DNA of 44,512 nt, from positions 1-44,512 of the forward strand of contig JAGAAW010000027.1 in NCBI GenBank assembly GCA_017615055.1, read 5' to 3'. The position numbers were made by a program, and so were the translations under genes. The notes beneath the pieces are model-generated. The model was given only the letters and a program-made list of their open reading frames with translations. It ran no database searches and was not told where the DNA came from. Source of the stretch: Fibrobacter sp. GTDB taxonomy: Bacteria; Fibrobacterota; Fibrobacteria; Fibrobacterales; Fibrobacteraceae. Of this stretch, positions 14,306 through 42,655 are shown one piece after another; within the stretch, counting starts at the first letter, position 1, and every line of letters starts with the position of its first letter.

Positions 14306-14334
14306 GCGCCGCAGGCGCATGAAATTTGTATATT
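14306..14334 (+). promoter_or_regulatory. GC hairpin and candidate -10 box (TATATT) before the polysaccharide operon
   Basis: GCGCC-GCA-GGCGC (14306-14318) directly follows the heptamer array. TTTGTATATT follows it, with the TATATT box at 14329-14334, 11 nt before the ATG at 14346. The hairpin occupies most of the spacer where a -35 region would end, so it may act as an operator. Function is inferred from position only. Confidence 0.35.
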
Positions 14335-14345
14335 ACTTTCGTATT

Positions 14346-14759
14346 ATGCCGAATTTTGAAGAAAAAGCGCAGATTATTCAGTTGCCCAAGTTCCTCGACG
14401 AGCGGGGTAACCTGAGCTTTCTGGAGTCGGGGAAGCATATCCCCTTCGAAATCCGGCGCACCTACTGGATTTATGACGTGCCGGGTGGCTGCCTGCGCGG
14501 GAGCCATGCGTTCAAGACGGAGAAGGAATTCATCGTCGCGCTTTCGGGCAGTTTCGACGTGGTCGTGCATGACGGTACCGAAGAAAAGCGCTACTCGCTT
14601 TCGCGCTCCTACTACGGGCTCTACCTGCCCCCGATGCACTTCAGGACCCTCGACAACTTCTCGACCAACTCGCTTGCGCTAGTGGTATCTTCGGCAGATT
14701 TTTCCGAGGAGGACTACATCCGCGACTTTGACGAGTTTATCCGCGAGGTACGCAAATGA
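14346..14759 (+). CDS. FdtA-like dTDP-sugar 3,4-ketoisomerase cupin, first copy (137 aa)
   Basis: This is a single cupin domain of the WxcM/FdtA family: IIQLPKFLDERGNLSFLE, HIPFEIRRTYWIYDVPGG, a GSFDVVVHDG turn, YYGLYLPPMHFRTLDNFS and DYIRDFDEFIREV. Family members isomerise dTDP-4-keto-6-deoxyglucose to the 3-keto sugar that a DegT-type enzyme then aminates. Here the family's RGGHAHK active-site segment reads RGSHAFK: His54 is kept, but the second His is Phe56. The activity may therefore be altered, or the protein may work with the second copy. The ATG at 14346 is chosen because the longer frame reads through the heptamer array. The stop overlaps the next ATG (ATGA). It is the first gene of the operon. 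Confidence 0.85.
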   Translation: MPNFEEKAQIIQLPKFLDERGNLSFLESGKHIPFEIRRTYWIYDVPGGCLRGSHAFKTEKEFIVALSGSFDVVVHDGTEEKRYSLSRSYYGLYLPPMHFRTLDNFSTNSLALVVSSADFSEEDYIRDFDEFIREVRK

Positions 14760-15190
14760 ACGAGCAGGACCTGAAAAACGCACGTATCGACATGTGCTCG
14801 CTCATTGAACTCCCGAGGATCAGCGAACGTTCCGGGAGCCTGACGCCTATCCAGAACTCGAAGGAGATTCCCTTCGACATCAAGCGCGTTTTTTACCTGT
14901 ACGATATTCCCGGCGGCGTGACGCGTGGCGGACACGCGCACAAGGAATGCCACCAGTTGCTGGTTGCGGCGAGCGGTGCCTTTGACATCAAGGTTTCCGA
15001 TGGCGAGAACGAGAAGGTCTACCGCCTTGACCGTCCGTATTTCGGGCTGCACATTCCGCCCGGAGTCTGGGCCGAGGAACTCGGGTTCTCTTCGGGTTCT
15101 ATTTGCCTGGTGCTCACCTCGCACGAGTTTGACGAGAGCGACTACTGGCGTGACTATGGCGATTATCTCAAGTTCAAGAAGGGGCGCTAG
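14756..15190 (+). CDS. FdtA/QdtA-like dTDP-4-keto-6-deoxyglucose 3,4-ketoisomerase (144 aa)
   Basis: This is the second WxcM-type cupin, with an intact RGGHAHKECHQL segment (His60, His62). Family landmarks are IPFDIKRVFYLYDIPGG, LLVAASGAFDIKVSDG, YFGLHIPPGVWAEELGFSSG and VLTSHEFDESDYWRDY. The expected reaction is conversion of dTDP-4-keto-6-deoxyglucose to dTDP-3-keto-6-deoxy-hexose, the step before 3-amination. Whether the product has the galacto (Fuc3N) or gluco (Qui3N) configuration cannot be told. It overlaps the first copy by 4 nt and precedes the aminotransferase by 2 nt, so the pathway order is followed in the operon. The nucleotide-sugar precursor genes rmlA and rmlB are not in the window. 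Confidence 0.9.
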   Translation: MNEQDLKNARIDMCSLIELPRISERSGSLTPIQNSKEIPFDIKRVFYLYDIPGGVTRGGHAHKECHQLLVAASGAFDIKVSDGENEKVYRLDRPYFGLHIPPGVWAEELGFSSGSICLVLTSHEFDESDYWRDYGDYLKFKKGR

Positions 15191-15192
15191 CG

Positions 15193-16377
15193 ATGAAGAT
15201 TCCGTTCCTTGACCTGAAGCAGGTGAATGCGCCCTACATGGATGCCTTGAAAGATGCCGCGGTGGCGGTTGTCGAATCCGGTTGGTATATCCGCGGTTCT
15301 TACTGCGAAAAGTTCGAGAGGGAATTTGCTGCCTACTGCGGTTTTGCCCATGGGGTTGGTGTCGGGAACGGTCTCGATGCCCTCACGCTCATGCTCCGTG
15401 CATCCATTGAACTTGGTCGGCTTAAGACGGGCGACGAGATTCTTGTTCCGTCGAATACGTATATCGCGACCGTGCTTGCCGTGAATGCGGCGGGCCTCGT
15501 TCCCGTGCTCGTGGAGCCCGACGAAAGGACATTCAACATTGATCCGGCAAGGCTTGCCGATGCCTGCTCGCCAAAAACGCACGGGATTCTGGCGGTTCAC
15601 CTGTATGGGCGCCTGGCCGACATGCCCGCAATTTGGGAATTTGCCAAGACGCGCGACCTTCTCGTGTTCGAGGATGCGGCGCAGTCCCACGGCGCTAGGT
15701 TGTCGTCGGGTCCGCAAGAGTGTCATCCTGAGCGGAGGGCGCAGCCCGCAGTCGAAGGATCTAGAAGCGCGGCCGTCGCCTACAGTTTCTACCCGACGAA
15801 AAACCTCGGGGCGCTTGGCGATGCGGGCATGGTCCTGACCGACGACGCTGAACTTGCCCGCGTCGTGCGGATGCTCGGCAACTACGGTTCCGAGAAGAAG
15901 TACGTGAATATGTACCGCGGTGTCAATTCCCGCCTGGACGAGATACAGGCCGCGTTCCTGCTGGCGAAACTCCCGCATCTCGATGCCTGGAACGAGCGCC
16001 GCAGGGCGATTGCCGCCCGCTATGTACGCGAGGTCAACAACCCGCTATTGCAGTTGCCCGAAATTCCGGCGGACCCGCGGGAGCACGTGTGGCATGTGTT
16101 TACCCTGCGTACGCCCGATGGCAAGACCCGCGATGCGTTGCAGAAGCATCTTGAATCCCGCGGTATCGGGACGCTCATCTTTTACCCGATTCCTCCGCAC
16201 CTGCAGCAGGCTTACGCGGCCGGGCCCGAGGGGGAATGTGCCTTGCTGCCGGTGAACCCGAAATTCCCGATTGCAGAGAAAATGGCCGAAACTGTCCTGA
16301 GTGTCCCCGTATCGCAGGTGCTTACGGACAGTGAGGTTACCGAAATTATAGGAGCGCTGAATGAGTTTGGTCGCTAG
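15193..16377 (+). CDS. DegT/DnrJ/EryC1 family sugar aminotransferase, FdtB/QdtB-like (394 aa)
   Basis: This is a PLP enzyme. Landmarks are IPFLDLKQVNAPYMD at the N-terminus, GVGNGLDALTLMLRA, EILVPSNTYIATVLAVNAAG, VFEDAAQSHGA, the PLP-lysine segment SFYPTKNLGALGDAGM (Lys203), and NYGSEKKYVNMYRGVNSRLD. Placed after two ketoisomerases, it most likely makes dTDP-3-amino-3,6-dideoxyhexose from the 3-keto sugar. Residues 176-191 are unusual: this loop before the PLP lysine is encoded exactly by a dispersed palindromic element (15718-15766) and is absent from the family pattern, which normally runs directly from the GAR...GR loop to the SFYP strand. The reading frame stays open. The end overlaps the next gene by 17 nt. 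Confidence 0.92.
   Translation: MKIPFLDLKQVNAPYMDALKDAAVAVVESGWYIRGSYCEKFEREFAAYCGFAHGVGVGNGLDALTLMLRASIELGRLKTGDEILVPSNTYIATVLAVNAAGLVPVLVEPDERTFNIDPARLADACSPKTHGILAVHLYGRLADMPAIWEFAKTRDLLVFEDAAQSHGARLSSGPQECHPERRAQPAVEGSRSAAVAYSFYPTKNLGALGDAGMVLTDDAELARVVRMLGNYGSEKKYVNMYRGVNSRLDEIQAAFLLAKLPHLDAWNERRRAIAARYVREVNNPLLQLPEIPADPREHVWHVFTLRTPDGKTRDALQKHLESRGIGTLIFYPIPPHLQQAYAAGPEGECALLPVNPKFPIAEKMAETVLSVPVSQVLTDSEVTEIIGALNEFGR
15718..15766 (+). repeat. Palindromic dispersed element inserted in frame in the aminotransferase
   Basis: GAGTGTCATCCTGAGC begins the element and CGAAGGATCTAGAAG ends it. The outer stem ATCCT/AGGAT (15725-15729 with 15756-15760) encloses the hairpin GGGC-GCA-GCCC (15737-15747). 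A longer member of the same family is at 42064-42164 on the other strand. The element encodes 16 residues beginning ECHPERRAQP without a stop. Confidence 0.85.
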
Positions 16378-42063: not shown

Positions 42064-42164
42064 TTTCTAGATCCTTCGACTACGGGCTGCGCCCTTCTAC
42101 TCATAGAGCATAACTCAACTAGTGAACTAAAGTTCTAAGTTTCGTTTAGCTCAGGATGACACTC
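42064..42164 (-). repeat. Dispersed palindromic element, long form, overlapping a gene end
   Basis: Read on the minus strand it begins GAGTGTCATCCTGAGC and ends AGTCGAAGGATCTAGAA, with the GGGC-GCA-GCCC hairpin near the end, as in the element at 15718. About 55 extra bases lie in the middle, including ACTAGT-centred palindromic sequence. It supplies the last five codons and the stop of the gene ending at 42146 and lies directly upstream of the GT2 start. Confidence 0.8.
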
Positions 42165-42655
42165 TGTGTCACTTCCATCCAGCCGGCCTGAACAAATGCG
42201 CCCGCCCGGACCAAGTCCGCCTGTTCCTTTTCGTAGGCCTTCAGGAGCGTGTTGTAGTCACGCGAGTCACGGACCAGTTTGGCGTCGTGGTGGATTTTCT
42301 TGTAGAGCATGTCCTGCTTCCACTGCGCAATGTCGGCAAGCCCTACGCAACTCTTGTCCAGCGCCTCGAGGTAGGCGGGTACTGCGTCCAGGAATGCTTT
42401 TTCAAAACTTTCGGCCTTTTCCTTCGCCACGATGACTAGGTTCTGCTGTGCGATGATGTTCTTGCGGATCTCGCTCATCAGGCGCACGATGCGCTCAAAG
42501 TCGACTTGCGGCCAAATGCGGTTGAACGGCCACATCTTTTTCCAGTGGAACTTGAAAATGGATTCGTGTGCGGCGTTCTTGGCTCGCAGGAATTCCTTCA
42601 GGTTTTCAAAAATGATCTGCGACGGCAGTTTCTGGGTTTCGGTAGTATCGGTCAT
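42146..42655 (-). CDS. Helical cytoplasmic protein of unknown function (169 aa)
   Basis: There is no signal peptide, membrane segment or recognisable motif. The sequence is predicted mostly helical with many charged residues, for example FENLKEFLRAKNAAHESIFK, FERIVRLMSEIRKNI and LLKAYEKEQADLVRAG. A Trp/Pro segment (FHWKKMWPFNRIWP) lies near residue 40. The last residues SVILS and the stop are read from the palindromic element at 42064-42164, so the original C-terminus has probably been replaced or extended. TTTGTATATTTTTCCGTAGA precedes the ATG, and there is no Shine-Dalgarno sequence. It may share a transcript with the two glycosyltransferase genes downstream; a functional link is not supported. 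Confidence 0.65.
   Translation of the reverse strand: MTDTTETQKLPSQIIFENLKEFLRAKNAAHESIFKFHWKKMWPFNRIWPQVDFERIVRLMSEIRKNIIAQQNLVIVAKEKAESFEKAFLDAVPAYLEALDKSCVGLADIAQWKQDMLYKKIHHDAKLVRDSRDYNTLLKAYEKEQADLVRAGAFVQAGWMEVTQSVILS

Follow-up and report, generated by a model that had tools for sequence, protein, structure and literature searches.

Short REP-like palindromes lie in frame within a predicted disordered loop of a Fibrobacter sugar aminotransferase, and different repeats occupy the same loops of core enzymes across the genus

The window, a 44,512-nucleotide stretch of contig JAGAAW010000027.1 from the Fibrobacter sp. assembly GCA_017615055.1, encodes at 15193..16377 on the plus strand a QdtB/FdtB-like sugar aminotransferase of 394 aa, of the DegT/DnrJ/EryC1/StrS type (Pfam PF01041, E = 6.5 × 10−94). 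Its closest sequence relative in the PDB is QdtB, PDB ID: 3frk (E = 2.9 × 10−98), and by fold it matches 7n63, 5u1z, and 3frk. Pfam identifies two FdtA-domain genes upstream and a hexapeptide acetyltransferase downstream, the usual company of dTDP-3-amino-sugar synthesis. The FdtA-domain genes (PF05523) adjoin each other at 14319-15187 on the plus strand, directly 5' of the aminotransferase. Also on the plus strand, 19213-40074 is a single ORF of 6953 aa, built of direct repeats in two blocks, one with a period of about 650 bp and the other of 570-640 bp, and it looks like a giant surface protein.

Residues 176-191 (E176-R191, ECHPERRAQPAVEGSR) of the aminotransferase are encoded by 15718..15766 of the plus strand, a near-perfect in-frame copy of a short palindrome that we call element A, with GTGTCATCCTGAGCGGAGGGCGCAGCCCGCAGTCGAAGGATCTAG at 15720-15764 (plus strand) as the core repeat. 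Sequence searching finds about 42 dispersed copies in the source assembly, and the insert copy scores 69.5 bits with the element A covariance model (R1). The original prediction, that these residues come from a dispersed palindromic element also found outside genes, was borne out, and the resemblance is carried by the DNA itself, in a strong match to intergenic copies: the best other copy in the assembly is 98% identical to the insert over 44 nt, with E = 3.7 × 10−15. The insert starts 9 residues past EDAAQSHG and stops 11 residues ahead of the PLP-binding lysine K203 (codon at 15799..15801, plus strand, 12 codons beyond the final insert codon, in the motif SFYPTKN), so it does sit just before the PLP-lysine segment as had been claimed. 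The enzyme was likewise said to have kept its frame and catalytic motifs, and in the orthologue alignment D161, Q164, S198, K203, and N245 are all present and invariant. The dN/dS against relatives is 0.07-0.10, similar to that of insert-free pairs, and is 0.054 between two species with a common insert in this gene. By these sequence comparisons the gene is under purifying selection, which may predate the insert. The source assembly is a metagenome-assembled genome of 170 contigs, 77% complete and 4.5% contaminated, as might raise the thought of an assembly or binning artefact, or of a pseudogene. Against the former, independent assemblies, several near complete, have repeats in the same loops, and against the latter, the frame, the catalytic residues, and the low dN/dS are all intact; we give an artefact or a pseudogene hardly any credence.

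Next to the insert, residues 168-175 (15694..15717, plus strand) are a hypervariable left flank of the loop that lies outside the repeat in the table of orthologue loops. Alignment with orthologues gave a divided answer. Fibrobacter orthologues without the window insert do exist, as the prediction would have it, but a clean insertion is not what they show: species differ in loop length even where no repeat is present, and the difference from the closest relatives that lack an insert (11 residues versus G060) is smaller than the number of residues that element A encodes. Judged from this alignment, the insert is not a simple clean insertion. The insertion step is one that we infer, because no orthologue shows a clean empty site or target duplication at the QdtB loop. 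The AlphaFold2 model has a mean pLDDT of 91, and pLDDT falls below 50 in one segment only, residues 172-189, flanked by strands 157-161 and 194-198. A relative with a different repeat in the same loop has its predicted disorder at residues 172-188 only. The insert is then a predicted disordered loop; the proposal in the original prediction that the loop is on the surface draws on the disorder and the neighboring strands, which make an exposed position probable.

The alignment of 28 copies from the source genome reads T/CGTC-ATCCT-GAGCG-gAG-(hairpin)-GAAGTCGA-AGGAT-CY with almost invariant ends, and the layout of element A can be given as T/CGTC-ATCCT-GAGC-(variable hairpin)-TCGA-AGGAT-C, with a length of 42-53 bp. 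Nearly every one of the 28 has TGTC or CGTC ahead of the stem, and the tail is GGATCCAG in some copies and GGATCT in others. The outer stem ATCCT/AGGAT is paired in 27-28 of the 28. In the inner hairpin, the sequence is free to vary while the pairing is kept, one inner-stem position being G-C in 9 copies, U-A in 8, C-G in 7, and A-U in 4. Single copies have ordinary folding energy, no better than shuffles (z of −0.1 to −0.8), so structural conservation rests on the paired changes between copies. The covariance model finds element A in every one of the 80 Fibrobacter genomes and in six from two further genera of the family; its matches in the rest of the phylum are only stray. An Rfam search with element A returned no match at E up to 1. 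Mobilization by a RAYT/Y1 transposase was considered as a requirement and rejected. Y1_Tnp (PF01797) occurs in only 27 of the 80 Fibrobacter genomes, and is missing from the source assembly and from the near-complete genomes G033, G045, and G068, each with at least 71 element A copies. Copy counts come from searches that considered up to 76 candidates per genome in one case and up to 36 in another. On this genomic evidence, the presence of element A needs no Y1/RAYT transposase.

Intergenic copies that lie between co-directional genes are on the gene strand in 29 cases versus 1 on the opposite strand. The count for the source genome alone, 18 versus 0, is the safer one, because some sites in the larger count are orthologous between species. 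Most intergenic copies begin 0-50 bp past the upstream stop codon. The strand bias is strong and not absolute, since reverse-oriented A-like pieces are found in three EF-G-like loops and a reverse-oriented repeat of type B in TopB. A bias of this kind, together with the outer stem present in all copies and the inner stem kept by paired changes, is what would be expected if the inserts were retained for a function, either as mRNA hairpins tuning operon expression or as protein loops altering the enzyme. The ordinary folding of single copies goes against this, as does the disorder of the loop in the AlphaFold2 model, and sister species have the same enzyme with unrelated repeats or none in the loop; we consider retention for function unlikely. 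The window has a second, intergenic copy of element A on the minus strand at 42065..42170, found as an inverted match in two parts (42065-42095 and 42149-42165) with its 5' half split by about 60 bp. It lies just upstream of the start of a glycosyltransferase-like ORF, and is adjoined by a TGACAC..GTGTCA inverted repeat that is seen beside other element A copies too.

Three known systems bear comparison. Rickettsia palindromic elements, described by Ogata et al. (2000; 2002, the latter via PMC3733652), lie between genes and also in frame within many conserved genes that are unrelated to one another. The likeness drawn to them in the original prediction is apt at the level of behavior: both are short dispersed palindromes, in frame in unrelated conserved genes and also intergenic, in enzymes presumed functional, and in the source genome the palindrome is in frame in five unrelated genes. 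The likeness is one of description, and the differences are that Fibrobacter is a free-living gut bacterium of another phylum, that element A has a hypervariable inner hairpin within its 42-53 bp, and that several unrelated repeat types re-use the loops. The CGTC-tagged REP superfamily, which includes RPE-4, RPE-6, and dRS3 (Di Nocera et al. 2013, PMC3733652), has an unpaired CGTC tag (or TGTC/CCTC) at one end and a stem of 8-9 bp closed by a loop of 4-5 nt; that account offers one same-site case, in recB of two Xanthomonas species, and Fibrobacter is absent from it. Element A has the T/CGTC tag and a stem beginning with AT, and like CGTC-REPs it is mostly intergenic near gene 3' ends and sometimes intragenic, with no dedicated transposase. 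CGTC-REPs frequently have a CCA tail, where element A ends in GGATCCAG in part and in GGATCT in the rest. Its stem architecture is unlike theirs, in that the outer stem is 5 bp long, internal loops are present, and the variable hairpin is separate, and so we do not class it as a member. GTAG REPs with RAYT transposases are also short palindromes in tens of copies that are mostly extragenic, but element A has no GTAG tag, and the Y1 transposase is absent from the genomes noted above.

A codon-usage scan that asks for coding sequence to either side of the element in a single open frame places about 5 of 30 copies in the source genome (~17%) inside genes. With the gene density of other bacteria as the yardstick, element A strongly avoids coding sequence if this genome is equally gene-dense. 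The five genes are QdtB, glutamyl-tRNA reductase HemA, an EF-G-like GTPase, a class I/II aminotransferase, and topoisomerase III (TopB), and in all five the element is read forward, in the CHPER or VILSG frame. Left out of this count for weak coding scores are L284 (reverse), L286 (forward), and a second copy in L004 (forward).

The QdtB loop was read between EDAAQSHGA and AYSFYPTKN in 75 Fibrobacter orthologous genes (90.6 kb). With motif patterns for four repeat types defined in this analysis, 24 of 24 matches in QdtB genes from 16 species fall in this one loop, which is 5.2% of the sequence; these cross-species counts are not independent, some inserts being common by descent or recombination. 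The repeats in the loop are dispersed within their own genomes, for which a control with reversed patterns gave 0. Four species (G000, G035, G073, and G037), at four positions in the tree, have distinct copies of element A that differ in sequence, one of them in another frame. Elsewhere the loop holds other, unrelated repeats, also in frame, namely a GTCATTGCGAG..GCAATC palindrome and tandem arrays of the 7-bp GACGAGA, together with a TTCGACAAGCTCA motif that occurs nested within them. By species, two have a CGTCATTGCGAGC..GCGAAGCAATC palindrome with a TTCGACGAGCTCAGGG motif nested inside, four have GACGAGA repeats in which a TTCGACAAGCTCACCAACC-type motif is nested, a related mix occurs in one more, and tandem TCTCGTC arrays occur in five. 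In the close pairs G072 versus G015 and G030 versus G010, the loops differ by exactly three 7-bp units, a change of 21 bp that keeps the frame. Among the relatives aligned from outside Fibrobacter, most have a short loop. Identical loop inserts of 50-57 bp are seen in L064 (G057) and L137 (G063), and also in L036 and L037. The tracts around common inserts have 93-100% identity, in genes otherwise about 78-90% identical (about 78% for G057 versus G063), which suggests that QdtB loops also move between species by local recombination.

By the same sequence searches, HemA, topoisomerase III, and the EF-G-like GTPase follow the QdtB pattern of different repeats in the same loops. The repeat matches in HemA orthologues, 14 of 14, are in one 15-residue window, and those in TopB orthologues, 41 of 41, in three windows, both sets of windows having been drawn after the matches were known. 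The EF-G-like loop was set beforehand from the copy in the source genome, so its 21 of 21 matches within residues 405-435 (30 orthologues) are a forward test. The EF-G-like gene of G018 (L314) has an in-frame loop of about 45 residues, of DERRETRDERR type, that is almost wholly encoded by GACGAGA. One way to obtain such confinement is for the loops to be insertion hotspots at the DNA level, by target sequence, by local structure, or by repeats seeding repeats, with tolerance secondary. The occurrence of repeat inside repeat in several loops (type D in A, B, or C), the short tracts of raised identity centered on common inserts, and the growth in place of 7-bp units in the two pairs above are in keeping with this. 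Counting against it, the QdtB, HemA, TopB, and EF-G-like loops have no obvious flanking DNA in common, unrelated repeat types enter one and the same loop, and most copies are just past stop codons, outside such loops. We put hotspots somewhat ahead of function, as a possibility that we doubt.

The explanation we favor, with good confidence, is that transposase-less REP-like elements insert in frame at permissive loops, where they are tolerated, with purifying selection as the filter. Fibrobacter genomes hold several families of short repeats, and a REP-like palindrome, element A, would have entered the aminotransferase gene in frame and along the direction of transcription, at a loop that probably tolerates almost any sequence. 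Selection would remove copies that arrive out of frame or within the folded regions of a protein, and in-frame copies would be kept in a few disordered loops, hence the QdtB, HemA, topoisomerase III, and EF-G-like loops refilled by different repeats. Once there, repeats nest in one another, grow in steps of three 7-bp units, and at times seem to cross between species in short recombination tracts. The simplest account of their source is that short repeats, mobile now or in the past, arrived again and again. The dispersal, the frame, the confinement to fixed loops, the predicted disorder, and the purifying selection on the gene are what the data show; that the repeats came by mobility, that the insert is neutral, and that selection brought about the confinement are what we infer. 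A broader idea, which we offer tentatively, is a standing turnover of protein loops in Fibrobacter: fixed loops of many core enzymes would serve as common landing pads where unrelated short repeats insert, nest, expand, and swap between species by recombination, and new loop sequence in the proteome would come mainly from repeat DNA.

Literature searching with the repeat sequences gave only chance matches in unrelated papers, and a search for repetitive extragenic palindromic repeats of Fibrobacter found nothing relevant. Recurrent colonization of fixed loops by multiple repeat families across a genus appears to be undescribed, in a literature search that covered few of the subscription papers. 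Evidence for selfish repeats building working protein has so far come largely from Rickettsia and scattered REP cases, and the QdtB insert is one clear example of a genus-wide pattern in which repeat DNA makes up stretches of presumably working proteins. The 80 related genomes have the same core-enzyme loops with different repeats, and so provide many natural replicates, with which, given laboratory enzymes and a cultivable genus, tolerance, hotspot targeting, and adaptive use can be told apart. A transposase-less palindrome with strong strand and position bias is also a lead on how CGTC-like repeats move. An additional palindrome, GTCATGCCGACTCAGGTCGGCATC, is present in the HemA loop of G054 (L235). 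Compared as sequences, GTCATGCCGACTCAGGTCGGCATC, GTCATCCT/AGGATC, GTCATTCT/GAATC, and GTCATTGC/GCAATC give hints of one superfamily of the form GTCAT-stem-ATC with exchanged outer stems.
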